Part shown: one piece after another, positions 16,901 to 61,945 of the stretch
Numbering within the stretch: position 1 is the first letter of the stretch
Layout of the letters: every line of letters starts with the position of its first letter
From: Nonlabens antarcticus
GTDB taxonomy: Bacteria > Bacteroidota > Bacteroidia > Flavobacteriales > Flavobacteriaceae
Direction of reading: 5' to 3'
DNA length: 64,000 nucleotides
NCBI RefSeq assembly: GCF_015356755.1
Contig: NZ_JADFCO010000064.1
Location: 248,001-312,000 of the forward strand
The notes under the pieces: generated by a model
The model's database searches: none
What the model was told of the DNA's origin: nothing
Seen by the model: the letters and a program-made list of their open reading frames with translations, nothing else
Translations under genes and position numbers: made by a program

Positions 16901-17476
16901 ATTGCCAATTTATGAATTGCTGACGCAATTCGTGATTACTAATTCTTAATTACTTACGCCTTGTTAATCATATTTAAGTCCTTTGCGATCACTGTTCTTG
17001 AGGTATTTCATGAACCCTGATATCTGCGCTTTACATTCATCCATTTTCTTAGCAACATTTTCAAATTTGTCCTGCTCCATATATTTCCTGTCTAAACATC
17101 GATAAAGCTGGGATTTTGATTCTCCACAACTCGCTTTTGAAATACTTAAAAATTGGATAAATTCTTTATTTCCATCGCGATCAAAACCCTCTGCGATATT
17201 ATCCATTATAGAGCCTGTTGAACGGTTTATCTGATTCCAAAGCCCGTAATCTTTCTGTAAGTCACTCAATAAATAAAGATCATACACATCATTACAAATT
17301 ACCCTCGCACGTTGCCAAATTTCCAGATCTTCAAAAGATTTATAATGAGCCATAATTAGAGGTTACGTAATTAAAATCTGTAATCATTAAAAACAAATTT
17401 CGAAGCGATTAGCAATCAAGAATGGCAATTTTATTGAATAATCAATAATTGCGTCAGCAATTCAACAATCGGGAAT
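16901..17476 (-). mobile_element. Putative S23 cassette A with inverted-repeat arms (between ffh and folD)
   Basis: An 18-bp perfect inverted repeat brackets the four-helix-bundle gene: TGAATTGCTGACGCAATT at 16913-16930 and its complement at 17447-17464. Matching continues imperfectly on both sides (TGATTA inside, about 8 of 12 bases outside). A transcript would place the gene in the loop of a long hairpin. No transposase or target-site duplication was seen, so mobility is inferred. Confidence 0.6.
16964..17353 (-). CDS. S23/IVP-family four-helix-bundle protein, copy A
   Basis: A 129-residue helical protein with SFEDLEIWQRARVICNDVY at the start and NRSTGSIMDNIAEGF, then FLSISKASCGESKSQL. These are hallmarks of the family first found inside intervening sequences of 23S rRNA and related to the Avd accessory protein of diversity-generating retroelements. 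Structures of relatives are four-helix bundles that form pentamers, and their function is unknown. Here it sits in the same orientation as ffh upstream and folD downstream, enclosed by inverted-repeat arms. No rRNA or reverse transcriptase is near. Confidence 0.88.
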   Translation of the reverse strand: MAHYKSFEDLEIWQRARVICNDVYDLYLLSDLQKDYGLWNQINRSTGSIMDNIAEGFDRDGNKEFIQFLSISKASCGESKSQLYRCLDRKYMEQDKFENVAKKMDECKAQISGFMKYLKNSDRKGLKYD

Positions 17477-17477
17477 T

Positions 17478-17520
17478 GAGCAAATGCGCTAAAAGCATTT
17501 GCTTTTAGCGCATTTTGCTC
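17478..17520 (-). terminator. Strong hairpin overlapping the ffh stop codon
   Basis: The arms GAGCAAATGCGCTAAAAGC (17478-17496) and GCTTTTAGCGCATTTTGCTC (17501-17520) pair almost perfectly around a 4-nt loop. The right arm covers the last four codons and stop of ffh, so the hairpin forms at the 3' end of the message. No long U run follows, so it may stabilise or attenuate rather than terminate. Confidence 0.65.
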
Positions 17521-18833
17521 ATCGCTTGCATCATGGCTTTTCCTTTTCCGCCTTGCATCATCTTCATCATTTTGCTCATCTGGTCAAATTGCTTGAGCAG
17601 TTGATTCACTTCAGTAACTGTTGTACCACTACCGCCTGCGATACGTTTCTTGCGGGAACCGTTAATCACTTGAGGTTGTGTGCGCTCTTGAATGGTCATC
17701 GAGTGAATAATGGCTTCAATACCTTTAAAGGCATCGTCGTCAATATCTACATCTTTCAACATTTTACCGGCACCAGGAATCATTCCCATCAGGTCTTTCA
17801 TGTTCCCCATTTTCTTGATCTGCTGGATCTGGGATAGAAAGTCATCAAAACCGAATTGGTTTTTAGCAATCTTCTTGCTTAATTTCCTTGCTTCTTCCTC
17901 GTCAAACTGTTCCTGGGCGCGTTCCACAAGAGATACCACATCACCCATTCCCAGAATACGATCTGCCATACGTTCTGGGTAGAAGATGTCAATCGCTTCC
18001 ATTTTCTCACCAGTTCCTATAAATTTTATAGGCTTATTCACCACAGACTTGATCGATAGCGCGGCACCACCACGAGTATCACCATCTAGTTTAGTAAGAA
18101 CAACACCATCAAAATTAAGGCGCTCATTAAAAGCCTTAGCAGTATTCACGGCATCCTGACCCGTCATGGAATCCACGACAAATAAGGTTTCGTGCGGTTC
18201 AACTGCTGCGTGAACATCTGCAATTTCTTTCATCATCTGCTCATCAATCGCTAGACGACCGGCAGTATCTATAATTACGGCATTAAAACCGTTCTGTTTT
18301 GCATAAGCAATCGCAGCTTCAGAAATCTTTACAGGATCCTTTTCATCACGATTAGAAAATACTTCAACGCCTATTTGTTCTCCTACAACGTGCAGCTGGT
18401 CAATTGCAGCTGGACGATAAATATCACAAGCAACTAGAAGAGGCTTTTTATTCTTCTTGGTTTTGAGAAAATTAGCGAGCTTTCCAGAGAAGGTTGTCTT
18501 ACCAGAACCTTGTAAACCAGACATAAGAATGATCGTGGGGTTTCCAGAAAGGTTAATACCTTCCACAGATCCTCCCATCAATTCTGTCAATTCATCCTTG
18601 ACAATTTTAGTTAAGAGCTGTCCTGGTTTAAGCGTTGTAAGAACGCCTTGACCTATTGCTTTTTCTTTTGCTATGGCTGTAAATTCCTTAGCAATCTTAT
18701 AATTTACATCAGCATCCACGAGGGCGCGACGTATTTCTTTTAGGGTGTCTGCAACGTTGACCTCAGTAATACTACCGTGACCTTTAAGGACGTGCATCGC
18801 CTTGTCCAGCTTATCTGTTAAATTATCAAACAT
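17505..18833 (-). CDS. ffh: Signal recognition particle GTPase Ffh (SRP54)
   Basis: This 442-residue protein has the N-terminal four-helix N domain, then the G domain: LQGSGKTTFSGKLA (P-loop), CDIYRPAAIDQL, DTAGRLAIDEQ, LTKLDGDTRGGAAL and GTGEKMEAID. The Met-rich M domain forms the C-terminus (KKMGNMKDLMGMIPGAGKM, ending MMKMMQGGKGKAMMQAMSKM) and binds 4.5S RNA and signal peptides. It delivers nascent membrane proteins to FtsY. A TATCTTTG -7 motif lies 26 bp upstream of the ATG. The assignment is firm. Confidence 0.97.
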   Translation of the reverse strand: MFDNLTDKLDKAMHVLKGHGSITEVNVADTLKEIRRALVDADVNYKIAKEFTAIAKEKAIGQGVLTTLKPGQLLTKIVKDELTELMGGSVEGINLSGNPTIILMSGLQGSGKTTFSGKLANFLKTKKNKKPLLVACDIYRPAAIDQLHVVGEQIGVEVFSNRDEKDPVKISEAAIAYAKQNGFNAVIIDTAGRLAIDEQMMKEIADVHAAVEPHETLFVVDSMTGQDAVNTAKAFNERLNFDGVVLTKLDGDTRGGAALSIKSVVNKPIKFIGTGEKMEAIDIFYPERMADRILGMGDVVSLVERAQEQFDEEEARKLSKKIAKNQFGFDDFLSQIQQIKKMGNMKDLMGMIPGAGKMLKDVDIDDDAFKGIEAIIHSMTIQERTQPQVINGSRKKRIAGGSGTTVTEVNQLLKQFDQMSKMMKMMQGGKGKAMMQAMSKMR

Positions 18834-18858
18834 ATTCTATAGGCATTTTTGAAGATTG

Positions 18859-18866
18859 CAAAGATA
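18859..18866 (-). promoter_or_regulatory. -7 promoter motif of ffh
   Basis: Reads TATCTTTG on the minus strand, a full match to TAnnTTTG, followed by GCAATCTTC and a short leader to the ffh ATG. Confidence 0.55.
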
Positions 18867-18930
18867 GAATTTCGCCGCGTGGTCTTCAAGGTTTTATATT
18901 GTGAATTGATGCTCTATATTTGAATGAGTT

Positions 18931-18946
18931 CGCTTTCGCGAAAGCG
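18931..18946. repeat. Interspersed palindrome, copy 4 (intergenic)
   Basis: Exact core in the spacer between ffh and the WG-repeat gene, about 100 bp upstream of ffh. Confidence 0.9.
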
Positions 18947-19097
18947 GAATAGTCAGAAATTATCCTGCACATGATGAGGTTCATGAAATAGGATACCTAC
19001 TCGCAGGAGGATGAAATTAATTATGCAAAAGAAACCGGCTAACATTGAATAGGCTAGGAGTTGACCGTTTGCTGCAAGCAGAATCTCTAGTTTAAAG

Positions 19098-19604
19098 TTA
19101 TTCTATCTTTTTACCATCACAGTCAATCATCCAGCGATCGATGCCTTTAAAAACTTCTGCTTTACCTTCAAAAAATGGCATTGCTGCACTGTATTCGAAC
19201 GGGACAATAATGTTATTCTCCTTATCAATGTAGCCCCATTTATCATTTTTTCTAACGCCTGCAAGACCACACTCACTAAAATGTGTTCCTTGACCGTACA
19301 TGAACGGTATCACTAAAATACCTTTTGCATTAATGTATCCGTAGGTGTAAGAACCTCCCTCACGCACTCGAGCCATGCCGTTAAGGAAAGGGTAGGCCAG
19401 CGAGTATTGTAAGGGAATAACTACAGTTCCAGCCTTATTAATAAAGCCGTGTTTTCCCTGATATGAGACGCTGGCTAGACCGCTGTGCTTTTCCCAGTTG
19501 TGATCTTTATCTACATTTCCCAACAGCAATTCTCTGGATTGCGCATAAGAACTCAATGAAATAAACATTAAAAGAAGTGGCAATAGAGCGGCTTTGGTTT
19601 TCAT
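19098..19604 (-). CDS. Exported WG-repeat protein
   Basis: A 168-residue protein with a signal peptide (LLPLLLMFISLSSYAQ). Three WG-type repeats follow: HGFINKAGTVVIPLQYSLAYPF, YGYINAKGILVIPFMYGQGTHF and WGYIDKENNIIVPFEYSAAMPF, each with the G-[FY]-I-[DN]-x-x-G/N-x-x-[IV]-[IV]-P-[FL]-x-Y core. The C-terminus carries WMIDCDGKKIE. WG repeats form beta-rich surface domains of unknown ligand. Monocistronic. Confidence 0.8.
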   Translation of the reverse strand: MKTKAALLPLLLMFISLSSYAQSRELLLGNVDKDHNWEKHSGLASVSYQGKHGFINKAGTVVIPLQYSLAYPFLNGMARVREGGSYTYGYINAKGILVIPFMYGQGTHFSECGLAGVRKNDKWGYIDKENNIIVPFEYSAAMPFFEGKAEVFKGIDRWMIDCDGKKIE

Positions 19605-19996
19605 AATTGCAGAATTGAATTATAAAAATACATTTTTTATTGCAGTTTTAAATTTTAGATGAGAACTAAAGGTCTGTACTATAGATAAATAATAGAGGTG
19701 TATGTAAGTTCGCTTACATAATTGGCGTTTTTTTTAGCAACCGCGATTTAGAGACAATATGCTAAGGATCTTTGCTACAACCTTCTGTTTTTTTATAATA
19801 TTGATTCAAAGTTCGCAATCAATTCTATTCTCAGACAGTGGGATGAATAATTTACTCGATATTTTTACTCAAAAACAGCGTGGGTTTTTCGAGCACGACT
19901 ATCTTAACTTTAGTGTAGCAATAAGAAAACTATGGTCGATGGGAACATGAACAAATCTTGAAAGGCACTACATAAACTAATAAATAACTTAAAAGA
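19605..19996. other. Spacer with one doubtful short ORF
   Basis: A plus-strand frame at 19759-19950 encodes 63 residues with a hydrophobic start (IFATTFCFFIILIQSS), but the rest resembles nothing I know and no promoter motif precedes it. I would not call it a gene without expression or conservation data. Confidence 0.3.
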
Positions 19997-20374
19997 ATGG
20001 GATTACTAGATAAATTAATGGGCAATGCCGGCGAGGTTGCTGCGGAAGAGTTAAAAAAGAATTACGGTCATTTATTAATTGACTCAGAAGAGATTGAGAT
20101 GGGCTTTGTACTCTTCCGCGATGTGTTCATATTTACTACTCGCAGATTAATCCTGATCGACAAGCAAGGTTTTACAGGTAAAAAAATCGAAATCAAATCC
20201 ATGCCCTATAAAAGCATTTCTAGATTTTCCCTAGAAACTGCTGGAACCTTCGATCTAGATGCAGAATTAAAGATTTGGATCTCTAGCGAAAACCTCCCCA
20301 GCGTCAGTAAGAAATTCTCTAAGGCCGTTGATATATACAAAGTGCAGAGATTGTTAGCTTCCAAAACCTGCTAA
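19997..20374 (+). CDS. Bacterial PH-domain protein (bPH_1 type)
   Basis: A 125-residue cytoplasmic protein. MGLLDKLMGNAGEV leads into a PH-like fold with EEIEMGFVLFRDVFIFTTRRLILIDKQGFTGKKIEIKSMPYKSI and a terminal helix (VYKVQRLLASK-like). The [FL]-[TL]-x-[RK]-R-L-[IL]-x-x-[DN]-x-x-G core is typical of the bPH_1/DUF family found in many bacteria. The length fits a single domain. The role is unknown and the gene stands alone. Confidence 0.78.
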   Translation: MGLLDKLMGNAGEVAAEELKKNYGHLLIDSEEIEMGFVLFRDVFIFTTRRLILIDKQGFTGKKIEIKSMPYKSISRFSLETAGTFDLDAELKIWISSENLPSVSKKFSKAVDIYKVQRLLASKTC

Positions 20375-20700
20375 TAATTTAGCGATCAACGCTTCAGGTC
20401 AAAGAAATGGGATCAATGTTAGCCAATTTTTGACCATGGGCGACCTCTGTTATCTACGGGAACACTCGTGATCTAATAAAAGCGATCTTGTTATGTGGAA
20501 TTTAACGTAAAGCTGGATGCTATTTGAAATCGGAATTTGAGCAAAAGGTAACCATCGTAAAGAAAAAAGTCATTTGCCCTACGTCAGCAGGTTGAAAGCG
20601 CAGCTATCAACAAGCTGGTCATTTGTCAACTTTGAGCACAAAAAAAATGCCTTTTTGAACTCAATCAAAAAGGCATTTCTTAATTACTATTTACTTTATA
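20375..20700. other. Convergent spacer with terminator
   Basis: A 326-bp spacer between the PH-domain gene and the FKBP gene, which converge on it. It holds the terminator at 20645-20678 and nothing else I can support. Confidence 0.45.
20645..20678 (-). terminator. Intrinsic terminator (FKBP gene, possibly bidirectional)
   Basis: The stem AAATGCCTTTTTGA pairs perfectly with TCAAAAAGGCATTT around a 6-nt loop. An A run on the left reads as a U run for the minus-strand FKBP transcript. Confidence 0.88.
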
Positions 20701-21132
20701 TTAGTTGATTCCAACTACTTCTAGTTCAAAAACTAGATCTTGTCCGGCAAGTGGGTGGTTTGCATCAACGATGATAAAGTCATCCTTAACATCTGCAACA
20801 CGCAACTGACGCTCTGTCCCGTCAGGGTTTTGTGCCATTAGTCCCATTCCTACTTCTGGCTTAATTTCGGCTGGAAGTTGGTTTCTTTCTACTTTCTGAA
20901 ACAATTCTTTTTGAACATCACCATAAGCTTCAGCCATTGGGATTTCCACAGTTTTCTTTTCATTAATCTTCATGTCGATCAATCCATTTTCAAAACCTGG
21001 GATCAATTGACCTTCTCCTAGCTTAGCCTCTAAAGGCTCTCTGTCTTCTGAAGTATCAAAAACACGACCGTCTTCCTTCAATTTTCCAGTGTAATGAACT
21101 TTTACTGTATCGTTTGCTTGTACTTGACTCAT
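20701..21132 (-). CDS. FKBP-type peptidyl-prolyl isomerase, SlyD-like
   Basis: This 143-residue cytoplasmic protein has VKVHYTGKLKEDGRVFDTSEDREPLEAKLGEGQLIPGFENGL, the FKBP core. The flap is replaced by an insert (VQKELFQKVERNQLPAEIKPEVGMGLMAQNPDG) as in SlyD IF domains, and it closes with VDANHPLAGQDLVFELEVVGI. These enzymes combine prolyl isomerase and chaperone activity. There is no His-rich metal-binding tail as in E. coli SlyD. A TACCTTTG -7 motif lies 25 bp upstream. Confidence 0.92.
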   Translation of the reverse strand: MSQVQANDTVKVHYTGKLKEDGRVFDTSEDREPLEAKLGEGQLIPGFENGLIDMKINEKKTVEIPMAEAYGDVQKELFQKVERNQLPAEIKPEVGMGLMAQNPDGTERQLRVADVKDDFIIVDANHPLAGQDLVFELEVVGIN

Positions 21133-21546
21133 AATATTATGATTTTATATCAGTTGCAAAGGTAAAAACTTAAGATCCGTAGCAAAGTTTGAGCTGTGCT
21201 AATCTGTACAATTAAGAGAAACTTAACGAGTTAGGAGATTTGTAATAGGTATTGCGTTAGATAATTTTCAGAGAAGGAATTATGAGTACCGCTTTCAAGT
21301 TTTATATCGTCCAAAATGCAATAAAGGCGACAGGTAAATCCATTGAAATTCTCCTAAAATAATTTCAATAATAGTTAAAACGTACCGCGAGACTCTTCTT
21401 TGCACAAGACTATGAATTAGCAATACTTAAATAAATCAGAGTTGTGTGTAGTGGGATGTTTCAATCTATTTATAAAGACTATCGTGTAACATTTCAATCA
21501 GCAACTTTGAATCGAGGATTCAATATTAAATAGAGTTAGAATACAA
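21133..21546. other. Gene-free spacer
   Basis: A 414-bp AT-rich spacer between two minus-strand genes. Apart from the FKBP promoter motif at its left end I see no structure. Confidence 0.4.
21157..21164 (-). promoter_or_regulatory. -7 promoter motif of the FKBP gene
   Basis: Reads TACCTTTG on the minus strand and is followed by CAAC, matching the TAnnTTTG element. Confidence 0.55.
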
Positions 21547-22305
21547 TCATTTCAGCGCTTCCATGCTGTCCTGTTTCACGGCAATCATCCCACGTCTAGG
21601 ACGGTCGAGATCGATGATGACAAATATCATGAGAGAGATTAAGAAGCCCATGATAATAGCGGGAACCCTAGGGTTGCGTTTGCCCAGACCACTAACATAT
21701 CCTGTGAGGACGCTGGCAAAAATAAATATTACAAACATCAGGTAATAAATAGTTGCAGGCACAGATCGTTGCAAGATATCGTTACGCTTTCCCTGAGCAT
21801 CGATCATGTCATTTACAGAGGTTACAAAATATCCCGTCGTTACAGGATTTGGAGCTTTTTCCGCAGCTCTTATTCCCACGCGCCATATCTGGCTTTGGAG
21901 GTCGCTAGTTCGATCCAGTTGCTGCTTTCTTATTTTCTCGTCGGTAACATCCGTTTTTACACTTTCAACTCTATGATCTATATAAAGGGACATCAAGGAA
22001 TCAGCGGCGCGATCGTCTGGACCAGGTAATAACTCCGTTCGCAACATGGTAGTCCCTATGGCATTAGCCTCAGCTACTTCAGCCGCTGCCCGGTTATCGT
22101 ATCTAGCTACAGACATACTAAAGGTAAAACCTATTATTAAGGCCAGCATACCGATGATCCCACCTTGAATGGAAGACGATTGGGATTTTGCGTCCTCGTC
22201 AGTTTTTCGTTCAAATTTTTCACCAAAATAAATTCCTATTTCGTTGGCAAGAATGATGGCAATAAATAAACCGATGGCAATGACGGCGCTGTTGATGTCG
22301 TACAT
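21547..22305 (-). CDS. DUF4239 (bestrophin-like) membrane protein
   Basis: This 252-residue protein starts at the ATG at 22305; an in-frame TTG at 22326 adds only seven residues. A first helix (VIAIGLFIAIILANEIGIYFG) and a second (GGIIGMLALIIGFTFSMSVARYDNR) precede a soluble middle with LRTELLPGPDDRAADSLMSLYIDHRVE. Two more helices follow (IYYLMFVIFIFASVLTGYVSGLG and IIMGFLISLMIFVIIDLDRPRRG). The GFTFSMSVARYDNR and DLDRPRRG motifs are typical of DUF4239 proteins, which resemble bestrophin-type channels. Function and ion are unproven. Confidence 0.82.
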   Translation of the reverse strand: MYDINSAVIAIGLFIAIILANEIGIYFGEKFERKTDEDAKSQSSSIQGGIIGMLALIIGFTFSMSVARYDNRAAAEVAEANAIGTTMLRTELLPGPDDRAADSLMSLYIDHRVESVKTDVTDEKIRKQQLDRTSDLQSQIWRVGIRAAEKAPNPVTTGYFVTSVNDMIDAQGKRNDILQRSVPATIYYLMFVIFIFASVLTGYVSGLGKRNPRVPAIIMGFLISLMIFVIIDLDRPRRGMIAVKQDSMEALK

Positions 22306-22391
22306 GTGAATGTTTTTGGAAGGCAATTTAGAATTGGCTCTCTTTCTTTTCTATGAACAAAATGTTAATTGGTAGTAGATAGGTATAAGTC

Positions 22392-22411
22392 ATCCCGCCG
22401 CAGGGCGGGAT
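22392..22411. repeat. GC-rich hairpin
   Basis: ATCCCGCC and GGCGGGAT pair perfectly around a 4-nt loop, in otherwise AT-rich spacer DNA. It has no U tract and lies between divergent genes, so it is more likely a dispersed repeat than a terminator. Confidence 0.6.
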
Positions 22412-22478
22412 CGGCTTTAAGATGTCAGTACTATCAAAGAACTCTATATCTTAGATAGTTGGTGAATGGAGAGGTTTC

Positions 22479-22494
22479 CGCTTTCGCGAAAGCG
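22479..22494. repeat. Interspersed palindrome, copy 5 (intergenic)
   Basis: Exact core, upstream of typA. Confidence 0.9.
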
Positions 22495-22633
22495 AACTCA
22501 AAATCAGTCCTATAAACAATCGGGCATAATTAGAGTTTAATCGAAATACCCACTATCATTCAATCTGATTATCAAATAAATACATTAAACTTCGTTTTAA
22601 CGCTTCAAAGGATTATAAATAAATAAATAAAAC

Positions 22634-22641
22634 TACTTTTG
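22634..22641 (+). promoter_or_regulatory. -7 promoter motif of typA
   Basis: TACTTTTG followed by CAGCC, a full TAnnTTTG match. Its position means transcription starts after 22641, which rules out the in-frame TTG at 22639 as a start and supports the ATG at 22666. Confidence 0.65.
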
Positions 22642-22665
22642 CAGCCGCTAAGAAGCGCTATTTAT

Positions 22666-54026: not shown

Positions 54027-54041
54027 ATAACTATAGAAACC

Positions 54042-55004
54042 ATGAGCGAAGCAGAAATCAAGAATTTAGAAGATCAATTTGATGCCAAAATTGCGCGCGA
54101 TGAGAAAATCGAGCCGAAAGACTGGATGCCAGAAAAATATCGCAAGACGCACATTCGCCAGATGTCACAGCATGCGCATTCTGAAATTGTCGGGATGTTG
54201 CCTGAAGGGAATTGGATCACACGTGCTCCATCCTTGCGTCGTAAAGTCGCATTGCTGGCTAAAGTTCAGGATGAAGCTGGACACGGGTTGTACTTATATA
54301 GTGCTTGTGAAACTTTAGGAATCACTCGCGAGCAGATGTATGAAGACCTGCATTCTGGTAAGGCAAAATATTCTTCCATTTTTAATTATCCGACCGTCAC
54401 ATGGGCAGACATGGGAGCAATTGGCTGGTTAGTTGATGGTGCTGCGATTATCAATCAGGTGCCACTTTGTAATACATCGTTCGGACCTTATGCGCGTGCG
54501 ATGGTGCGTGTTTGTAAGGAAGAAAGTTTTCACCAGCGTCAGGGTTATGAGATTATGTTGTCCTTATGTAATGGAAGTGCGGAGCAAAAAAATATGGCGC
54601 AAGACGCCTTGAATCGCTGGTGGTGGCCATCATTAATGATGTTAGGTCCTACAGATGCAGAAAGTACGCACACGGATCAATCCATGAAATGGAAGTTGAA
54701 ACGTAAAACAAACGATGAATTGCGTCAGCAGTTTATTGATCAAACCGTACCACAAGCAGATATTTTAGGCCTTACCATCCCAGATGCCGACTTGAAATGG
54801 AATGAGGAAACGGGACATTACGATTTTGGCGAGATCAATTGGGATGAGTTTTGGCAAGTTGTAAAAGGTCACGGCCCGATGAATAAATCCAGAATTGATG
54901 CCAGAAGAAACGCCTGGGAAGGTGGCGCATGGGTAAGAGAAGCAGCAACGGCTTATGCAGATAAGCAACGAGCTCGAAAAGAAGAAACTGCTCAGGCATC
55001 GTAA
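54042..55004 (+). CDS. paaA: 1,2-phenylacetyl-CoA epoxidase catalytic subunit PaaA
   Basis: A 320-residue diiron oxygenase subunit that epoxidises the aromatic ring of phenylacetyl-CoA. Ligand motifs of the ExxH kind are in [20 protein letters not shown] and [15 protein letters not shown]. Other family stretches are [37 protein letters not shown] and [16 protein letters not shown]. Hairpin repeats bracket it on both sides; the downstream set begins right at its stop codon. Confidence 0.96.
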
Positions 55005-55195
55005 GTGCAGATCGCATCCGCCCACGACATGCTAGGACGCAAGCGATGCACCTCCGAACCGGCGCATGAGATGCGCCGACAACAGTAAGGGCGGATCGCA
55101 TCCGCCCACGATATGCTAGGACGCATGCGATGCGCCGACAACGTAAGGGCGGATCGCATCAGCCCAGCATATGGTAAGACGCATGCGATGCGTCT
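55002..55195. repeat. Three-unit hairpin repeat block between paaA and paaB
   Basis: Units start at 55002, 55086 and 55144. Each contains a GGGCGGAT-nnn-ATCCGCCC type hairpin, a CACGAnATGCTAGGA linker and a GACGCATGCGATGCG hairpin. The first is longer by a 26-bp insert holding GGCGCAT-GAG-ATGCGCC. The first unit begins on the TAA of paaA. The GACGCAT hairpin is the same as in the array upstream of paaA. Confidence 0.85.
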
Positions 55196-55219
55196 CGAAA
55201 CTACAAACTACTGAAACCA

Positions 55220-55504
55220 ATGAAAAAAGAAACACCACTTTGGGAAGTATTCATCCGCTCTAAAAACGGTCTGGAACATCGCCATTGCGGCAGCCTTCAT
55301 GCGGAAGATGCAGAAATGGCAATGAATAACGCTCGTGACGTTTATACCCGTCGCAATGAAGGCGTCAGCATTTGGGTTGTAGAATCTACCAATATCACCG
55401 CCAGCAGCCCAGAGTCCAGCGGCGAACTTTTTGAACCCGCAAATGATAAGGTTTATCGTCATCCTACTTTTTATGAGTTGCCTGATGAGTTGAAACATAT
55501 GTAG
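55220..55504 (+). CDS. paaB: 1,2-phenylacetyl-CoA epoxidase subunit PaaB
   Basis: A 94-residue structural subunit: TPLWEVFIRSKNGLEHRHCGSLHAEDAEMAMNNARDVYTRRNEGVSIWVV, with the family end DKVYRHPTFYELPDELKHM. It bridges PaaAC dimers in the multicomponent oxygenase. Followed by S23 cassette B. Confidence 0.95.
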   Translation: MKKETPLWEVFIRSKNGLEHRHCGSLHAEDAEMAMNNARDVYTRRNEGVSIWVVESTNITASSPESSGELFEPANDKVYRHPTFYELPDELKHM

Positions 55505-55505
55505 G

Positions 55506-55948
55506 TTTAAAAATAAAATTAAAAGGAAAAATAAAAGCAATCTGTAATGAGCGATAAACCTTATGATGTCGAAGAAAGGCTTATAGAATTTGCTGCACAA
55601 GTTACAATTGAGTTTAATTTCCCCTTAAAGAATTATGCTTCAAAATATTATGCTGAACAACTTATAAGATCCTCGGGAAGTGCTGCTCTCAATTATGGCG
55701 AGTTTGCTGGAGCTTCTTCTGCTAAAGACAGAGCGAATAAATTGAGAATTGCTTTCAAAGAAATGAAGGAATGTCATAACAATATTCGCATTCAGCATCG
55801 AGCTAACTTATTAAAGGAAAAGCAAGCGGATTTGATTGATGAATCATTACAACTTTGTAAAATCCTTTCCACAATAATTAAAAACTTAAAATAATATTGA
55901 AATCTAACTAAGCTTATTTTTCATTTTATTTTTCATTTTATTTTTAAT
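55506..55948 (+). mobile_element. Putative S23 cassette B with inverted-repeat arms (between paaB and paaC)
   Basis: The left arm (55506-55538; TTTAAAAATAAAATTAAAAG core) and the right arm (55912-55948; its complement with a 7-base insertion) enclose the S23 gene. The right arm ends on the base before the paaC ATG. The arms are built of short ATTTT/CATTTTA-like repeats. They are low-complexity, so pairing could be partly chance. Confidence 0.5.
55547..55894 (+). CDS. S23/IVP-family four-helix-bundle protein, copy B
   Basis: A 115-residue protein with VEERLIEFAAQVTIEFNFPL, LIRSSGSAALNYGEFAGASS and AFKEMKECHNNIRI. It belongs to the same subfamily as copies C and D (shared [ED]-x-RLIxF and LIRS-x-x-x-ALNYGE), and is more distant from copies A and E. 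It is cytoplasmic and likely oligomeric. Function is unknown; it lies inside the paa operon, same strand, 46 bp after paaB. Confidence 0.88.
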   Translation: MSDKPYDVEERLIEFAAQVTIEFNFPLKNYASKYYAEQLIRSSGSAALNYGEFAGASSAKDRANKLRIAFKEMKECHNNIRIQHRANLLKEKQADLIDESLQLCKILSTIIKNLK

Positions 55949-56797
55949 ATGAAACAAATAAACAATCCAACTTCAACTTCAATTTCAGGTTCGACTTCTT
56001 CACCGATCCGTGAATTGAATCCGCAATTTTTGGAATCAAAGGAAAACAAACAACACCTAATCGACTACCTATTAGGCGTAGCAGACAATTATCTTATTCT
56101 AGGACAACGTTTGGGAGAACTCTGCGGTCACGGTCCTAATTTGGAGCCAGATATTGCGATTACTAACATATCACTGGATTTGCTGGGTCAAGTACGCAGT
56201 TATTATCAATATATTGCTCAGATCAAAGGCGATAAAACAACAGAGGATGATATTGCATTCTTGCGAACAGAACGGGAGTATAAAAACGTGTTGCTGGTAG
56301 AGCAACCCAATACCGATTTTGCCTATATCATTGTGCGTCAGTACTTCTTTGATGTTTATAATCGGTTATTTTTAAATGCGTTGCAGCAGAGTGGTGATGA
56401 AACCTTGCGAGCACTGGCATTTAAAGGAATCAAGGAAGCCAGTTACCACGAGCGATTTTCGGGCGACTGGTTAAAACGATTGGGCGATGGAACGGAAGAA
56501 AGCAAAGTTAAAACTCAAGAAGCCGTCAACAACCTATGGATCTTCACGGAAGAATTATTTCATAAAACAGAGGCCGACCAGTCTATGATTGAAGTGGGAG
56601 TCGCTATTGACATGACGCAGTTTAAAGAACTCTATTACGAGAAGATAAAAGAACAATTAACCATTGCAGCTATAGAAATCCCGGAAGTTGAATACTTCCA
56701 AAAAGGAGGCAAACAAGGAATTCACAGCGAGCATATGGGCTTTTTGCTGTCAGAAATGCAATATATGCAGCGCACTTATCCGGACTCACGGTGGTAG
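55949..56797 (+). CDS. paaC: 1,2-phenylacetyl-CoA epoxidase subunit PaaC
   Basis: A 282-residue structural subunit. The conserved part begins near residue 36 (LIDYLLGVADNYLILGQRLGELCGHGP), then LDLLGQVRSYYQYIAQ, EASYHERFSGDWLKRLGDGTEES and a C-terminal GKQGIHSEHMGFLLSEMQYMQRTYP. About 34 Ser/Thr/Asn-rich residues precede the family start (NNPTSTSISGSTSS). They are absent from known PaaC proteins, such as the E. coli one, and the ATG follows directly on the S23 arm, so the leader may be an accident of that insertion, or a later TTG may be used. Confidence 0.93.
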   Translation: MKQINNPTSTSISGSTSSPIRELNPQFLESKENKQHLIDYLLGVADNYLILGQRLGELCGHGPNLEPDIAITNISLDLLGQVRSYYQYIAQIKGDKTTEDDIAFLRTEREYKNVLLVEQPNTDFAYIIVRQYFFDVYNRLFLNALQQSGDETLRALAFKGIKEASYHERFSGDWLKRLGDGTEESKVKTQEAVNNLWIFTEELFHKTEADQSMIEVGVAIDMTQFKELYYEKIKEQLTIAAIEIPEVEYFQKGGKQGIHSEHMGFLLSEMQYMQRTYPDSRW

Positions 56798-56811
56798 TAA
56801 AAAATGTTCAA

Positions 56812-57328
56812 TAACAATTTGTCAATGAACAATGAACAATGAAAGTTTAATTTTGATAATGTAACTTGAACAGTCAAATAAATGTTCAACTAACAATTTG
56901 TCAATTTTCAATTGTCAGCGACTAAAATTCTATTATGGTTAGGAAATTTGATTTAGAAGAAAGGCTGATTGACTTTGGAGTTCAATGCATAAAACTCTTT
57001 GTTAAAATAGAAAAATCTTATGCCTTAGATCATTTGAGTAAACAGCTCATAAGATCATCGACTGGAGCTGCATTAAATTATGGAGAGGTTCAAGGTGCCG
57101 AATCGAATCGCGATTTTATCCATAAGATGGGTATTGTTTTAAAGGAATTGAAAGAGTCGAGGGTTAATTTCAAGATTCAAATAAGAGCAGAACTACTTAA
57201 AGAAATTGCCTTAGCTGAATCATCTCTGAAAGAATGCGAAGAGCTTGTCGCTATTTTCGCAAAAAGTATAAAAACTGCAAAATCCAAATAATTGAAAATT
57301 GAGCATTGATAATTCTAAATTGAGAATT
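56812..57328 (+). mobile_element. Putative S23 cassette C with inverted-repeat arms (between paaC and paaD)
   Basis: Left arm 56881-56913 ends in TCAATTTTCAATT. The right arm starts inside the S23 stop codon (57290) with AATTGAAAATTGA and continues to 57328 with TCAATTTAG/CTAAATTGA-type pairing. A direct repeat of TAACAATTTGTCAAT (56812 and 56891) lies in the left flank. The exact 13-bp pairing is clear; the outer parts are imperfect. Confidence 0.5.
56935..57291 (+). CDS. S23/IVP-family four-helix-bundle protein, copy C
   Basis: A 118-residue protein: FDLEERLIDFGVQCIKLFVKIEKSYALDHLSKQLIRSSTGAALNYGE, then MGIVLKELKESRVNFKIQIRAELLK. Clearly the closest paralogue of copy D (shared LSKQLIRS-x-T-x-x-ALNYGE-x-x-G-x-ES and IQ-[IK]-x-AEL). 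Its role is unknown. Position is between paaC and paaD on the same strand. Confidence 0.88.
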   Translation: MVRKFDLEERLIDFGVQCIKLFVKIEKSYALDHLSKQLIRSSTGAALNYGEVQGAESNRDFIHKMGIVLKELKESRVNFKIQIRAELLKEIALAESSLKECEELVAIFAKSIKTAKSK

Positions 57329-57368
57329 TTCTAGTTCGGTATTCGTTAATCGATATTCAATATTCCAC

Positions 57369-57866
57369 ATGATTCAAAACTTCAACATATCAAGTAAACT
57401 TAAAGAAATTCTAGAATCCGTAATGGATCCTGAGATTCCTGTACTTAACGTTGTGGATCTGGGTGTAATCCGCAATGTTCAGGTCAATGGGAAAGAAATC
57501 ACCATTAAACTAACTCCTACCTACAGCGGTTGTCCAGCGATGGACGTGATAGGCGACGATCTGGAACGGGCTTTTGAAAAGGAAGGGTATTCTGCACATA
57601 TTCAATTGATTATGAGTCCGCCATGGACTACTGACTGGATTACGGATCGTGGTCGCAAGGCGCTGGAAGATTACGGTATCGCCGCACCACTCGATGAAAC
57701 AGCCGATAAAGACGTGCTGCTCAACGAGAAGAAATTAGTCAAGTGTACGAATTGTGGCTCGACGAATACGAAACTCGTGAGCCAGTTCGGTTCCACGGCA
57801 TGTAAGGCGATGTTTCAATGTGAGGATTGTCACGAGCCGTTTGACTATTTTAAGTGTTTGAAATAG
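57369..57866 (+). CDS. paaD: Phenylacetyl-CoA epoxidase maturation factor PaaD
   Basis: A 165-residue protein with an N-terminal DUF59/MIP18 domain (LESVMDPEIPVLNVVDLGVIRNVQV, TYSGCPAMDVIGDD, SPPWTTDWITDRGR) and a C-terminal zinc ribbon (KCTNCGSTNTK, FQCEDCHEPFDYFKC). In E. coli this factor is needed for the epoxidase, probably for metal-cluster assembly. Confidence 0.95.
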   Translation: MIQNFNISSKLKEILESVMDPEIPVLNVVDLGVIRNVQVNGKEITIKLTPTYSGCPAMDVIGDDLERAFEKEGYSAHIQLIMSPPWTTDWITDRGRKALEDYGIAAPLDETADKDVLLNEKKLVKCTNCGSTNTKLVSQFGSTACKAMFQCEDCHEPFDYFKCLK

Positions 57867-57877
57867 AAATAATTTTC

Positions 57878-57893
57878 CGCTTTCGCGAAAGCG
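57878..57893. repeat. Interspersed palindrome, copy 15 (paaD-paaG spacer)
   Basis: Exact core, 12 bp after the paaD stop. Confidence 0.9.
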
Positions 57894-58035
57894 AACTATC
57901 TTTCATTATCGAGTAAATTATCAAGTGGAGCCGTCCTGCAAGGGCTTAACAAATTAAACTGAAACCGTTTTGAAACCGCTTGACTAAAAAGAACCAAAGC
58001 CATTTTCAAATGTCTTTCCAACTAGAAAAATATTT

Positions 58036-58815
58036 ATGTCAGAATCCATACAACTAGAAATCAATAACGGCATTGCCGAAATAACTTTTAACAGACCACA
58101 AGTCTTCAACTCCTTTAATAAAGAAATGGCTTTTGCGATGCAGGATGCGCTAGATCGATGTGTACAAGACGATGTTCGAGCAGTATTGATCACGGGAAAC
58201 GGGAAGGCATTTTGTGCCGGTCAAGATATTCAAGAGATCACCAATCCAGATTTGAATCCCGGATTTAAGGCGATTCTGGATGATCATTATAATCCGATCG
58301 TTTTAAAAATAAGGAATCTTGGAAAACCAGTCGTTGCCGCAGTGAATGGTGTTGCTGCTGGTGCTGGAGCAAATCTCGCGTTATGTTGCGATATTGTGAT
58401 TGCTACTGAAAGCGCCACCTTTATTCAAGCTTTTTCTAAAATCGGCTTGATTCCGGATAGTGCTGGGACTTTCTTTTTGCCGCGATTGATCGGTTTTGGG
58501 AAGGCGAGTGCCACTATGATGCTAGCCGACAAGATTACCGCTATAGAAGCTGACCAATTGGGAATGATCTATAAAGTTGTAAAGGATGATGAGTTTCTAG
58601 CTTTCGCGAAAGCGACCACAAAAAAACTAGCAGAATTACCAACAATCGCTCTAGCAAACACCAAAAAAGCGCTCAACGAATCCATGACAAATACTATGGA
58701 ACAACAGCTTGCACTGGAATCTAAATTACAAATCGCAAGCGCCAGCACCGATGACTATCAGGAAGGTGTAGCCGCATTTGTGGAGAAAAGAAAGCCGGAG
58801 TTTAAAGGGAAATAG
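58036..58815 (+). CDS. paaG: Ring 1,2-epoxyphenylacetyl-CoA isomerase PaaG
   Basis: A 259-residue crotonase-fold enzyme. RPQVFNSFNKEM, ITGNGKAFCAGQDIQEI, HYNPIVLKIRNLGKPVVAAVNGVAAGAGANLAL, FSKIGLIPDSAGTFFLPRLIG and DDYQEGVAAFVEKRKPEFKGK align by eye with E. coli PaaG, including the YNP and IPD motifs that set it apart from PaaF. It converts the epoxide to an oxepin. Palindrome copy 16 encodes AFAKA at 58599. Confidence 0.92.
   Translation: MSESIQLEINNGIAEITFNRPQVFNSFNKEMAFAMQDALDRCVQDDVRAVLITGNGKAFCAGQDIQEITNPDLNPGFKAILDDHYNPIVLKIRNLGKPVVAAVNGVAAGAGANLALCCDIVIATESATFIQAFSKIGLIPDSAGTFFLPRLIGFGKASATMMLADKITAIEADQLGMIYKVVKDDEFLAFAKATTKKLAELPTIALANTKKALNESMTNTMEQQLALESKLQIASASTDDYQEGVAAFVEKRKPEFKGK
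58599..58614. repeat. Interspersed palindrome, copy 16 (one-base variant inside paaG)
   Basis: AGCTTTCGCGAAAGCG: first base differs. Read as AFAKA in EFLAFAKATTKKL, a helix. Confidence 0.85.
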
Positions 58816-58923
58816 AACACCGATTTGAGATTAACGATCAAGAATTTTTAATTTATGGGCGCAGTAGATTGTTGTAGCTTTAGAAAAAAGACATCACGAA
58901 TCCGAGCTATTGATATTAGATTG

Positions 58924-59358
58924 GAGATTCTTGATATCTGATTTTTGATTTAAAAAAACAATATGAAAGCTCAAGAATTAGAAGATCGATTGATAGGTTT
59001 TGCAGTTTCAGTTATTAGGACCTGTAAATTTCTTGATCAAAGCTTTGCTTCACAGCATTTGTCAAAGCAGTTAATTAGATCAACAACTTCAGTTGCGTTA
59101 AATTACGGAGAAGCTAAAGGAGGCGAATCCACCAAGGATTATCTGCACAAAATGAATATCTGCTTAAAGGAATTAAGAGAAAGTTATATAAATCTCAAGA
59201 TTCAAAAAGGTGCCGAACTCATTACAAATATCCAAGTGCTAGATAATCTCATTGATGAAAATAATCAACTGATTTCCATTTTTGTAGTCAGTATAAAAAA
59301 CACGAAAACGAAGTGATAGAACAAAATCAAAAATCAAAAATCAAAAATCAAGATTCTC
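58924..59358 (+). mobile_element. Putative S23 cassette D with inverted-repeat arms (between paaG and paaH)
   Basis: The left arm (58924-58951; GAGATTCTTGAT, then TGATTTTTGATTT) pairs with the right arm (59323-59358; AAATCAAAAATCA repeated, then AGATTCTC). The right arm is a run of AAATCA-like hexamers and lies inside the start of paaH. Confidence 0.6.
58963..59316 (+). CDS. S23/IVP-family four-helix-bundle protein, copy D
   Basis: A 117-residue protein: ELEDRLIGFAVSVIRTCKFL, HLSKQLIRSTTSVALNYGE, KGGESTKDYLHKMNICLKELRESYINLKIQKGAEL. Same subfamily as copies B and C. Its stop overlaps the GTG start of paaH (GTGA), so the two are translationally coupled. Function unknown. Confidence 0.88.
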   Translation: MKAQELEDRLIGFAVSVIRTCKFLDQSFASQHLSKQLIRSTTSVALNYGEAKGGESTKDYLHKMNICLKELRESYINLKIQKGAELITNIQVLDNLIDENNQLISIFVVSIKNTKTK

Positions 59359-60533
59359 ATATCCGTAAGGTTGGAATAATAGGAGCAGGAACAATGGGCA
59401 GCGGTATTGCTCAAGTGGCAGCCACAGCAGATTGCATCGTCAAGTTGTTTGACCTGAAGACTGATCAGCTGGAGAATTCGAAAATAGCATTAGAAAAAGT
59501 CTTGAGCAGATTGATCGAGAAAAAGAGAATCGACGAATCTGATAAAAACCGCATTCAAGGAAATATTCACTACGTCAATACGCTGGAAGATCTAGCCGAT
59601 AGTGATCTGACGATTGAGGCAATCGTAGAAAACCTAGAAGTTAAAAAGAAGGTTTTTACTCAATTGGAAAAGTTGGTTTCTGACAATTGCATTATTGCAT
59701 CTAATACTTCTAGTCTAAGTATTACAAGTATTGCGGCGTCACTAGAGAATCCAGAACGATGCATTGGGATTCATTTTTTCAATCCTGCACCGTTGATGAA
59801 ATTAGTAGAAATTATTCCAGCGGTTCAAACTTCAGAAGAAATTACAGCAACTTGTGTCGCCACGATAAGAAGTTGGGGCAAAACTACCGCAGTTGCTAAG
59901 GATACACCTGGTTTCATTGTCAATCGTGTTGCACGACCATTTTACAGTGAAGCATTGAGAATGTATGAAGAAGGAATGGCAGACATTCCTATGCTAGACA
60001 AAGTCGTCCGACAGATGGGTTTCAAAATGGGGCCGTTTGAACTAATGGATTTTATAGGAAACGATGTGAATTATGTTGTAACCGAATCGGTTTTTGCAGC
60101 CTTTTATTTTGACCCGCGATACAAGCCGTCGTTGACCCAAAAACGATTGGTAGAAGCTGGTTGGTTAGGCAAAAAATCTGGTCGCGGATTTTATAAGTTT
60201 GAAGATGGCAAAAAAATAGAACCAGATCACGACCCAGAAATGCTGACTGGCGCAGATATTCAGGCCATCCAAGATCGTTTGCTCGTTATGCTCATCAATG
60301 AAGCTGCAGATGCTTTGTACTTAAAGATTGCAACTGCAGAAGATCTGGATAACGCCATGACTAAAGGCGTGAATTACCCGAAAGGACTGCTCGCCTGGGC
60401 AGACGAGAAAGGAATAGCCTGGTGTGTGGAGCAACTGGATGCGTTGTATGCGTTTTATAGAGAAGATCGTTATCGATGCTCGCCTCTATTGCGCAGTAAG
60501 GCCACAGCCAAAGAAACCTTCTTTTCATTATGA
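59313..60533 (+). CDS. paaH: 3-hydroxyacyl-CoA dehydrogenase PaaH
   Basis: A 406-residue NAD-dependent dehydrogenase: VGIIGAGTMGSGIAQVAA, SNTSSLSITSIAASLENPERCIGIHFFNPAPLMKLVEI, DTPGFIVNRVARPFYSEALRMYEEG, MGFKMGPFELMDFIGNDVN. Its first ~20 residues (IEQNQKSKIKNQ... repeated) are the translated inverted-repeat arm of S23 cassette D, ahead of the conserved VGIIGAG; no later standard start lies before that motif. It is shorter than E. coli PaaH, which carries an additional C-terminal region. Confidence 0.93.
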   Translation: MIEQNQKSKIKNQDSHIRKVGIIGAGTMGSGIAQVAATADCIVKLFDLKTDQLENSKIALEKVLSRLIEKKRIDESDKNRIQGNIHYVNTLEDLADSDLTIEAIVENLEVKKKVFTQLEKLVSDNCIIASNTSSLSITSIAASLENPERCIGIHFFNPAPLMKLVEIIPAVQTSEEITATCVATIRSWGKTTAVAKDTPGFIVNRVARPFYSEALRMYEEGMADIPMLDKVVRQMGFKMGPFELMDFIGNDVNYVVTESVFAAFYFDPRYKPSLTQKRLVEAGWLGKKSGRGFYKFEDGKKIEPDHDPEMLTGADIQAIQDRLLVMLINEAADALYLKIATAEDLDNAMTKGVNYPKGLLAWADEKGIAWCVEQLDALYAFYREDRYRCSPLLRSKATAKETFFSL

Positions 60534-61060
60534 TAAGATTTGTAGGTCTTTTGCGTGGTGTCAATGTGGGCGGTCATAACAAACTTCCCATGGCAAGCTT
60601 GCGCGACGCGTTGGATAAAACATCTTTTCAAAGCATCACTACCTACATACAAACTGGGAATATCGTTTTCAGCAGCAAGCTGGAAGAAGCTGAATGTGAA
60701 CAAATCATTTCTGAAGTTCTCAAGTCAGACTTTGACCTTGAAGCTCCAGTTATTGTGCGGGAGCAATCTTATTTTGAAACGGTTCTAAAAGCAAATCCGT
60801 TCAAAACAAGAACGATCGATAATTCTAAATCCATGAGTTTTGGTTTTTTGAGTGAAATTCCTGCTCAAGATAAAATAACGGTCGTAGAACAAATGTCTTC
60901 TGATTTAGAAACCTTTAAAATCGTAGATGACGTTCTCTATTTCTACTGTGGAATCAGTCTTGCCGATACTAAATTCACAAACACATGGTTTGAAAAGAAA
61001 CTCGGCGTGATTTCAACGATGCGCAATTACAATACAACACTTAAACTGACACAGCTCTAA
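60530..61060 (+). CDS. DUF1697 protein
   Basis: A 176-residue protein overlapping paaH by an ATGA: MIRFVGLLRGVNVGGHNKLP, YIQTGNIVFSSKL, MSFGFLSEIP, FYCGISLADTKFTNTWFEKKLGVISTMRNYNTTLKL. These are family signatures of DUF1697, of unknown function. It is not part of known paa operons, so its placement may be incidental or reveal an accessory role. Confidence 0.85.
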   Translation: MIRFVGLLRGVNVGGHNKLPMASLRDALDKTSFQSITTYIQTGNIVFSSKLEEAECEQIISEVLKSDFDLEAPVIVREQSYFETVLKANPFKTRTIDNSKSMSFGFLSEIPAQDKITVVEQMSSDLETFKIVDDVLYFYCGISLADTKFTNTWFEKKLGVISTMRNYNTTLKLTQL

Positions 61061-61062
61061 AT

Positions 61063-61470
61063 ATGATGGAAGGGAAAAATATTCCAACAAAAATGCTTTC
61101 ACTAGATCCGTTCTCGACCTGGTTGGGAATTGAGATTATTAGTGCGGAAATAGGCTGTGTGAAATTAGGAATGACGATACGACCAGAGATGTTGAACAGT
61201 ATGGGAAAAGCTCATGGTGGAATTACTTATTCGCTTGCCGATACGGCTTTTGGATTCACTTCAAATACGCACGGCAAAATGGCGGTTTCTATTGACACCA
61301 GCATCAACCATATAGAATCACTAGAAGCTGGTGATTACATCACAGCAGAATGCACGCTGGATAAGACAAAGACAAAAGTGGGTTTCAATATCGTTGAGGT
61401 TAAGAAAGGTGATGAATTGGTGGCTTTGTTTAAGGGTGTTGTCTATCGAACAAATAAGGATTGGGAATGA
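61063..61470 (+). CDS. paaI: Hotdog-fold acyl-CoA thioesterase PaaI
   Basis: A 135-residue protein, MLNSMGKAHGGITYSLADTAFGFTSNTHG with the catalytic Asp in the hotdog helix, and AGDYITAECTLDKTKTKVGFN. PaaI hydrolyses stalled ring-hydroxylated phenylacetyl-CoA, freeing CoA when the pathway blocks. It starts 2 bp after the DUF1697 gene; two adjacent ATGs are possible starts. Confidence 0.92.
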   Translation: MMEGKNIPTKMLSLDPFSTWLGIEIISAEIGCVKLGMTIRPEMLNSMGKAHGGITYSLADTAFGFTSNTHGKMAVSIDTSINHIESLEAGDYITAECTLDKTKTKVGFNIVEVKKGDELVALFKGVVYRTNKDWE

Positions 61471-61473
61471 TTT

Positions 61474-61489
61474 CGCTTTCGCGAAAGCG
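61474..61489. repeat. Interspersed palindrome, copy 17 (paaI-S23 spacer)
   Basis: Exact core, directly after the paaI stop and 4 bp before the left arm of S23 cassette E. Confidence 0.9.
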
Positions 61490-61493
61490 AGCT

Positions 61494-61945
61494 AGGCATT
61501 AGGCAATAGGGATGAGGTATTAGTATATTTGAAATATGCGGAGTTTATATCATTTCAAGTTTGAAAATTTGTTGGTCTATCAAAAAGCGATGGATTTTGC
61601 TGAGCTTGTTGATGAAATCACTAAATCCTTTCTACAACGAGAGTTATATGCCATAAGCTCTCAATATAGAAGAGCACCAGACTCAATAGGGCTGAATATA
61701 GCCGAAGGATATCCTGGAAGTGACGCTCAGTTTTGTAAGCATATAAACATTGCTATTTATTCAGCAAATGAATGTGTTTCTGCATCTACCAAAGCCTTTC
61801 GCAGAGAATACATAAGTTTTAATCAAAATGAAGAAACTAGAAGGCTATTGGTTGAAATCACTAAAATGCTATCTAGTCTAAGAAATAAAATATTGGAGCG
61901 CAGGAAAAAGTAAATCTAATTCCTCATCCCTAATACCTAATCCCT
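61494..61945 (+). mobile_element. Putative S23 cassette E with clear inverted-repeat arms (between paaI and paaJ)
   Basis: The arms are 30 nt long (61494-61523 and 61916-61945). Over the outer 24 bases they pair at 21 positions, the inner 5 include ATTAG/CTAAT, and 26 of 30 match overall. The core is AGGGATGAGG/CCTCATCCCT. The arms consist of tandem AGG-containing heptamers. This is the clearest cassette of the set, because the sequence is not simply AT-rich. Confidence 0.75.
61536..61913 (+). CDS. S23/IVP-family four-helix-bundle protein, copy E
   Basis: A 125-residue protein: YHFKFENLLVYQKAMDFAELVDEITKSF, ISSQYRRAPDSIGLNIAEGY, KHINIAIYSANECVSASTKAF. This matches the FENLxVYQKAM and NIAEG signatures of the canonical S23 group, like copy A and unlike B-D. 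Hence two lineages of the family have reached this operon independently. Position: between paaI and paaJ, same strand. Confidence 0.9.
   Translation: MRSLYHFKFENLLVYQKAMDFAELVDEITKSFLQRELYAISSQYRRAPDSIGLNIAEGYPGSDAQFCKHINIAIYSANECVSASTKAFRREYISFNQNEETRRLLVEITKMLSSLRNKILERRKK

Follow-up and report, generated by a model that had tools for sequence, protein, structure and literature searches.

S23 proteins were first seen in the intervening sequences of 23S rRNA, hairpins that are excised by RNase III and in which an S23 frame likewise lies between complementary ends. Arrays of seven-nucleotide words are known from the cyanobacterial STRR (short tandemly repeated repetitive) heptamers and from the heptamer stem of the Nostoc tRNA-Leu intron, where the arrays face each other; we know of no link between either of these and S23. 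The Omega repressor of plasmid pSM19035, a ribbon-helix-helix protein, binds arrays of 7-bp words in direct and inverted orientation. Here we describe five S23 genes in a 64,000-nucleotide stretch of the Nonlabens antarcticus genome (Flavobacteriaceae; contig NZ_JADFCO010000064.1, positions 248,001 to 312,000; hereafter the window). Each gene, named below by its first coordinate, lies inside an operon, and four of the five are enclosed by clear inverted arms made of short repeated words.

All five genes matched PF05635 in a profile search (38.4-109.7 bits against a gathering score of 33.8), at the positions where the first-pass annotation had placed them, and the genome as a whole holds ten S23 genes. 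The AlphaFold model of the 61536 protein consists of four helices (mean pLDDT 92), and its best Foldseek matches are the solved S23 structures 2gsc (E 1.6e-6) and 2rld (E 2.8e-5). The model also suggests a likeness to Avd of the diversity-generating retroelements (DGRs), with TM scores of 0.74 to 4dwl (E 0.047) and 0.73 to 8ub7 and weak E-values of 0.05-0.08; the available text of PMC10053308 states that PF05635 and Avd are related. An adjacent reverse transcriptase, a feature of DGRs, is absent here: the nine genes that adjoin the five copies include none, the wider genome not having been searched. The window genes share their protein family (PF05635 / TIGR02436) and complementary ends (weak at one of the five copies) with the 23S rRNA intervening sequences, from which they differ in lying between protein genes of operons and in having private word arrays as ends. 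An Rfam search of the window gave no match. Insertion into rRNA was rejected: the 20 loci from other phyla that were listed among 80 named loci contained one tRNA and no rRNA.

The available text of two papers describes heptamer repeats in other bacteria: GGGAATC arrays in Xanthomonas, located mostly between aligned genes and with 70-75 inverted pairs per genome (PMC4692102), and TAACTGA arrays in Beggiatoaceae, Cyanobacteria and Bacteroidetes (PMC4679880). The S23 arms share the period of 7 and the mostly intergenic placement of these repeats, and one Luteimonas S23 gene has GGGAATC arms; unlike the repeats as described there, the S23 arms carry a word that is tied to an S23 gene and is lineage-specific. 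The terms 'S23' and 'four helix' do not occur in the main text of either paper, and no paper joining S23 with flanking arrays was found in the open-access literature by title or abstract start. The Omega repressor is a precedent for a protein that acts on 7-bp arrays, S23 being a four-helix bundle instead. The combination of an S23 gene with private word arrays, together with the spread of such words through S23-carrying genomes of one bacterial family, suggests a type of genetic element that has so far escaped notice.

Arms were scored by matching the 200 nt upstream of each gene to the reverse complement of the 200 nt downstream, and chance rates for the window copies were obtained from 500 cross-locus pairings and 500 dinucleotide shuffles (Table 1). 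The first-pass annotation had assigned pairing arms to all five copies, differing between copies and clearest at 61494/61916 and 16913/17447. These two pairs were correctly singled out and the arms do differ from copy to copy, but pairing was clear at four copies and weak at 56935 (p ~0.03). It was also right that the genes follow their host operons: each of the five points the same way as the genes on either side, with four interrupting paa and one lying at ffh/folD. The longest paaH reading frame takes in the 3' arm of 58963 among its first codons (window 59313-59360), so this arm may be translated as an N-terminal extension.

Table 1. Coordinates of the S23 genes and their arms in the window, and of GIY-YIG-like genes at other loci.
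Feature	Position	Strand	Remarks
S23 gene, 129 aa	16964..17353	-	between ffh and folD; PF05635 109.7 bits
16964 cassette, 5' arm	17439..17477	-	arm match 24.0; cross-locus p 0.004; dinucleotide-shuffle p 0.000
16964 cassette, 3' arm	16900..16938	-	arm match
S23 gene, 115 aa	55547..55894	+	between paaB and paaC; PF05635 41.0 bits
55547 cassette, 5' arm, 6-nt words	55505..55536	+	arm match 19.5; cross-locus p 0.010; dinucleotide-shuffle p 0.000; period 6
55547 cassette, 3' arm	55924..55955	+	arm match
S23 gene, 118 aa	56935..57291	+	between paaC and paaD; PF05635 38.4 bits
56935 cassette, 5' arm (weak)	56888..56917	+	arm match 12.5; cross-locus p 0.032; dinucleotide-shuffle p 0.028
56935 cassette, 3' arm (weak)	57307..57336	+	arm match
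7-nt periodic array following 56935 3' arm	57335-57370		
S23 gene, 117 aa	58963..59316	+	between paaG and paaH; PF05635 46.9 bits
58963 cassette, 5' arm, TTGATTT words	58924..58951	+	arm match 20.5; cross-locus p 0.012; dinucleotide-shuffle p 0.000
58963 cassette, 3' arm	59331..59358	+	arm match
S23 gene, 125 aa	61536..61913	+	between paaI and paaJ; PF05635 89.2 bits
61536 cassette, 5' arm, TAGGxAT words	61493..61523	+	arm match 21.0; cross-locus p 0.002; dinucleotide-shuffle p 0.000
61536 cassette, 3' arm	61916..61946	+	arm match
GIY-YIG-like genes	L166 16458-16788; L096:324-615; L175; L116	- (L166)	early control list

Paired arms distinguish S23 genes from other genes of the same DNA. A score of at least 12.5 was reached by 62% of 181 Flavobacteriaceae S23 genes as compared with 6.5% of 803 other genes, and the corresponding values were 48% and 3% at a score of at least 15, and 20% and 0.5% at a score of at least 20; S23 genes having <150 nt on one side were dropped. 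The control rate is too high if anything, because some of the high-scoring controls are fadA-type genes adjoining S23 cassettes. Among the 102 distinct S23 genes compared first, 50 scored above the cross-locus 95th percentile and 17 above the 99th, and direct (non-inverted) flank matches exceeded the 99th percentile for just six. Within the genome of N. antarcticus, three inverted pairs scoring at least 17 were present in the 20 kb of the paa locus, all of them S23 arms, and three were present in 300 kb without S23, none of them word-like. A palindrome, CTTTCGCGAAAG, recurs in the window (~57878, 58602, 61474) and in relatives, and is the source of several control matches.

PF05635 is carried by 21 of 23 genomes of the genus, 89 of 120 of the family and 193 of 247 of the phylum. 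Arms were also found beyond the family. In a further set of 153 S23 genes, the cross-locus 95th percentile was exceeded by 42 of 72 genes in a Bacteroidota group that includes further Flavobacteriaceae, by 13 of 27 from named Flavobacteriales, by 21 of 23 from other named Bacteroidota and by 25 of 31 from other phyla, under which one Ignavibacteriales and one Kapaibacterium record were tallied; record titles served to assign genes to these groups. When both sets were pooled, 210 of 334 loci scored at least 12.5. A Saprospiraceae contig (L283:1991-2956) contains two identical tandem S23 genes ~617 nt apart.

The arms had been described as short tandem words, and this description can be sharpened: most periodic arms repeat every 7 nt, and periods of 6 or 8 occur at some loci. 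Flank self-match at a lag of 7 was 0.386 on the left and 0.381 on the right versus 0.269 in control DNA, and further peaks at 14, 21 and 28 were present in both arms and absent from genes and control DNA; the lag-7 peak was seen again in each of the four groups of the further set. Examples of arm words are TATTGAG, TTCTTAG, TGGAAGC, GTTGTTG and ATTTGAG. Both arms were periodic at 26 of 181 loci, where the two periods either agreed or were 6 and 12. A pattern of core and spacer, with some columns conserved and others varying freely, was detected at p<0.05 in 111 of 240 arrays (combined z 38). The arms can be described as arrays, inverted relative to each other, of a ~7-nt word that is particular to the locus and has a conserved core and a free spacer, and much of the arm pairing follows from the presence of one shared word on both sides. 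The order of words was matched between arms at just 3 of 160 loci (p<0.05), in a comparison that has low power in short arrays. Growth of the arrays can be one-sided, with right arms of up to ~15 unit copies opposite short left arms, which supports the earlier suggestion that arms arise by expansion of a word.

Mismatches between arms comprised 333 transversions and 190 transitions, which sets them apart from ordinary point mutations. Mutagenesis confined to adenine, of the kind seen in retroelements, was rejected, since word mismatches extend beyond adenine. Tandem slippage together with quasi-palindrome correction could enlarge and equalise the arms, in which case S23 would be a passenger. 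The unilateral expansions of identical units, the predominance of transversions and the linked turnover of the two arms (see below) fit such a mutational by-product; against it, paired word arms single out S23 genes among the 803 controls, core positions are kept while spacers vary, and two dispersed words are associated with S23 carriage, and we judge this explanation quite improbable.

The orientation seen in the window is general. In the Flavobacteriaceae set, 172 of 181 S23 genes were codirectional with both neighbours and none was opposed to both, compared with 58 and 6, respectively, of 112 small control genes. Recurrent sites in this family, with gene names outside the window-gene neighbours assigned by reading the sequences, are fadB/fadA (32), fadA/acyl-CoA dehydrogenase (16) and a split metH (7). 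In the Luteimonas family (L435-L464), S23 recurs between genes read as accB/accC and carA/carB, with words that differ by site. S23 is under purifying selection, as measured by a median dN/dS of 0.086 and a maximum of 0.279 in 33 independent pairs; a further 14 pairs were saturated.

The first-pass interpretation as a whole was upheld in part, but its proposal of a hairpin in the transcript, with the open reading frame (ORF) in the loop, was weakened as the conserved feature of the cassettes. Under this explanation, an mRNA counterpart of the rRNA intervening sequences, the arms would pair in the operon mRNA around the S23 loop, RNase III would cut, and S23 would act on the hairpin. The derivation of the family name from 23S rRNA intervening sequences speaks for it, as does the likely transcription of S23 with its operon in the 172 codirectional cases. 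The arms can pair in RNA: predicted folds of 150 S23 genes and as many controls, all chosen among genes of suitable length, gave a median of 35 expected arm pairs for S23 and 8 for controls. In the window, pairing in the folds was strong for 16964, 58963 and 61536 (56, 40 and 41 expected pairs), weak for 56935 (12) and hardly present for 55547 (4), and two of the five copies scarcely pairing counts against a hairpin. Comparison of orthologues revealed changes in both arm partners at 3.3% of positions versus 2.7% in a displaced control, and complementarity was kept in 133 of 245 such doubly changed positions, which is in keeping with a hairpin. No preference for G.U over A.C was observed among arm mismatches (80 versus 110) or among orthologue arm mismatches (199 versus 323, related pairs being counted repeatedly); arm base composition alone predicts an excess of A.C over G.U by ~1.3, and the cross-locus preference is 403 to 308. 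The lack of a G.U preference speaks against selection on transcript base pairs, and RNA-stem selection, as judged by G.U tolerance, was rejected on these counts; a DNA target is not thereby proven. Given also that word order is unmatched between the arms, within the power of that comparison, we regard the transcript hairpin as a rather unlikely explanation.

Relatives of N. antarcticus confirmed that S23 is present or absent at the ffh/folD and paa junctions. Of 23 genus members, 16 have an S23 open frame at paaB/paaC and 11 have one at paaC/paaD; such a frame is found at paaG/paaH in 11 of 21 and at paaI/paaJ in 8 of 13, and three other paa junctions were occupied in 1 of 21, 4 of 12 and 2 of 8. 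In G121 an S23 gene is fused in frame with paaD (L169:4879-5785) and was counted as none at paaC/paaD; G124, G133 and G125 (L160, L162, L163) have an additional gene of ~1 kb at paaG/paaH. At paaB/paaC, a broken S23 copy remains in four of the seven frame-less genomes as judged by eye, three of which were also scored. The ffh/folD junction contains S23 in 6 of 23 genomes, lacks it in 16 and is cut off in one. One ffh/folD lineage (G000, G133, G125, G130) is 76-85% identical, and the S23 proteins of G127 and G135 are distant (no long BLASTP match, or 25-28% identity) and have other words, showing that this junction was occupied independently by three distant S23 lineages. Arm remnants were expected at empty sites and were seen at some of them: two empty paaG/paaH sites (G126, G130) retain arm-like words by eye, but the ffh/folD gaps of G120, G124 and G139 are clean (18-26 nt). 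The remaining empty ffh/folD gaps are 53 to 353 nt long.

The two arms of a cassette change together. At a given junction, arms vary from one species to the next, yet the two arms of each species continue to match; among 228 pairs of same-site orthologues with 45-60% protein identity, the arm match was 13.8 within a locus and 9.2, near background, between loci. These values demonstrate that the word turns over jointly in both arms. Between different sites, arm similarity increases with S23 identity: scores of at least 16 were reached in 10.7% of 168 pairs with S23 identity of at least 60% and in 0.3% of 6728 pairs with identity below 25%. Between an S23 gene of the window genus and one of Brumimicrobium, which are 78.5% alike in DNA, flank homology is confined to the cassette and the word is of the same type (by eye). 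The suggestion that the gene and its own two arms form a cassette is supported. The junctions also bear on the possibility that the arms are local operator arrays, S23 being a resident autoregulator that binds them and tunes the downstream genes, with no mobility. Strong purifying selection, the core/spacer structure of the words, orientation with the operon and the frequent sites between subunit genes of one enzyme (fadB/fadA, accB/accC and carA/carB, as read from sequence) would all suit such a regulator. Clean empty sites, three distant S23 lineages at a single junction and the broken copies at paaB/paaC in four genomes argue against it, and we find it doubtful.

Arm words were also found away from S23 genes. 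The Luteimonas genome of L308 contains one S23 gene, with GGGAATC arms, and 140 exact GGGAATC doublets; GGGAATC arrays occur at many S23-free places in Luteimonas, which is a further point against purely local operators. Ten convergent GGGAATC pairs 36-132 nt apart were present among the places listed for this genome. Five convergent, S23-free pairs occupy short gaps; three of the gaps were read as atpH/atpA, dnaK/dnaJ and gltB/gltD. The interiors of these five pairs are mutually unrelated, with best scores of 6-10, the 95th percentile of shuffled sequences being 9.5 and 1 of 10 comparisons lying above it. A conventional transposon that has terminal inverted repeats and leaves short non-autonomous copies would explain a gene between inverted ends, the empty sites and the short S23-free pairs of Luteimonas. 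We consider it very improbable, because those interiors are unrelated, the ends of most copies are not homologous (cross-locus matches are near background except among close S23 relatives), the cassette is a single gene matching only PF05635 in Pfam with no transposase match, and no target duplication was recognised by eye at ffh/folD, where the insertions may be too old.

The association of dispersed words with S23 was evaluated in 149 genomes of the Luteimonas family (Lysobacteraceae, formerly Xanthomonadaceae), 64 with S23 and 85 without. The doublet (GGGAATC)2 was carried by 37 of the S23-bearing genomes and by 13 of the others (odds ratio 7.6, p 7e-8); for (GGGACTC)2 the counts were 23 and 6, respectively (odds ratio 7.4, p 1.5e-5). 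Because these genomes are relatives of one another, Fisher's p exaggerates the significance. Copy numbers of the GGGAATC doublet were 2410 with S23 and 220 without, and those of the GGGACTC doublet 1153 and 117. Dispersed words are associated with S23 carriage for two words in one family. GGGACTC outnumbers GGGAATC in five of five genomes with an exact GGGACTC doublet in the fetched S23 flanks, and when up to one mismatch was allowed, a post hoc choice, arm and genome agreed in 5 of 6 GGGACTC-arm and 2 of 2 GGGAATC-arm genomes. A backward control pattern had 86 matches in G418 and at most one elsewhere; the S23 flank of G418 has AGGGCTC, of which the pattern is a rotation. The ends of the S23 genes in this family are uncertain (long frames), so arm scores, which were at least 15 in 6 of 30, are a poor guide there.

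The anatomy of the unit and its statistics are well supported, and we tentatively favour, at somewhat less than an even chance, the reading that S23 recognises its own word at both cassette ends and in solo arrays. An S23 gene and its two arms form one unit, in which S23, a four-helix-bundle relative of Avd, would recognise the word of its own lineage wherever it is repeated along the two arms; some lineages would also recognise arrays of their word at other places in the genome. Binding would be direct and specific, the target would be double-stranded DNA, and the unit would be mobile; S23 may contribute to spreading or rewriting the arrays, probably with an additional enzyme. The unit would settle in gaps between co-transcribed genes and exploit transcription of the host operon, which would account for its one-way orientation, and the same set of junctions would acquire, lose and exchange such units over time while the word turns over in both arms together. 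Recognition of its own word by S23 appears to be the simplest account of why words are lineage-specific, why they have a core and a spacer and why two of them spread with S23 carriage, as judged from sequence comparison. A stronger proposal, which we think unlikely, is that S23 proteins, being related to Avd, act as writers of words, each directing the installation and spread of its own word as inverted arrays around intergenic segments. Arrays would then arise around unrelated interiors, the S23 gene itself among them, and not by the copying of a fixed element.

Several observations weigh against own-word recognition by S23. At 124 of 334 S23 loci the arms score below 12.5 or the flanks contain N, and the weak score of 56935 in the window is reached by 6.5% of the 803 control genes. 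Like words among close S23 relatives may reflect plain inheritance. The association in the Luteimonas family is tempered by the relatedness of its genomes, and S23-free genomes can be rich in the words (82 GGGAATC doublets in G490, 98 GGGACTC doublets in G389). Prediction of the genome word from the arm word was not significant by a preset rule (p 0.28, 16 loci), and in Geobacter AOG1 the word is confined to its own S23 locus (16 of 16 matches). Purifying selection at a median dN/dS of 0.086 indicates a lasting use at the level of the host, which a purely selfish reading does not predict. In the genome of N. antarcticus, eight S23-free arrays in 300 kb matched resident S23 flanks at 137.5 versus 107.4 for foreign flanks (sd 7.6, p 0.0006), but p became 0.49 once the array L193:18357-18462 was omitted; omission of any other array kept p at or below 0.0015. 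The L193 array has TGGAAGC-type words like those of S23 locus L005, and its score of 42.5 was matched by no foreign S23 flank. Since the match depends on one array, it was not counted as independent support. One S23 copy of this genome, L007, was missed by the profile and was added by hand for the own-genome array tests only. A comparison meant to show whether stray arrays in the genus depend on S23 was set aside as underpowered, with one period-7 array in 400 kb of two S23-free genomes, two in 400 kb of two S23-rich genomes and eight in the 300 kb of the own genome. Long heptamer arrays are present in two S23-rich relatives at L369:3866 (TTGGAAG) and L386:18565 (CATACCG).

Other repeats were noted whose form differs from that of the S23 arms. 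Small GIY-YIG-like nuclease genes, as read from sequence, have palindromic repeats on both sides (CAAGCCGTCGCAGGACGGCTT and ATTCCTGCGAAGGCAGGAAT types) in an arrangement unlike S23 arms (Table 1). GC-rich repeats of the GGCGGATCGCATCCGCCC type lie between paaA and paaB (window 55000-55200).

S23 genes are common, yet we found no known role for them. The link between S23 and its words offers an origin for the published heptamer repeats, and if S23 proteins do write words, the GGGAATC repeats of Xanthomonas would be the dispersed product of one S23 lineage. The link also raises the questions of what Avd-like proteins do outside retroelements and of how operons tolerate genes inserted between the genes for subunits.

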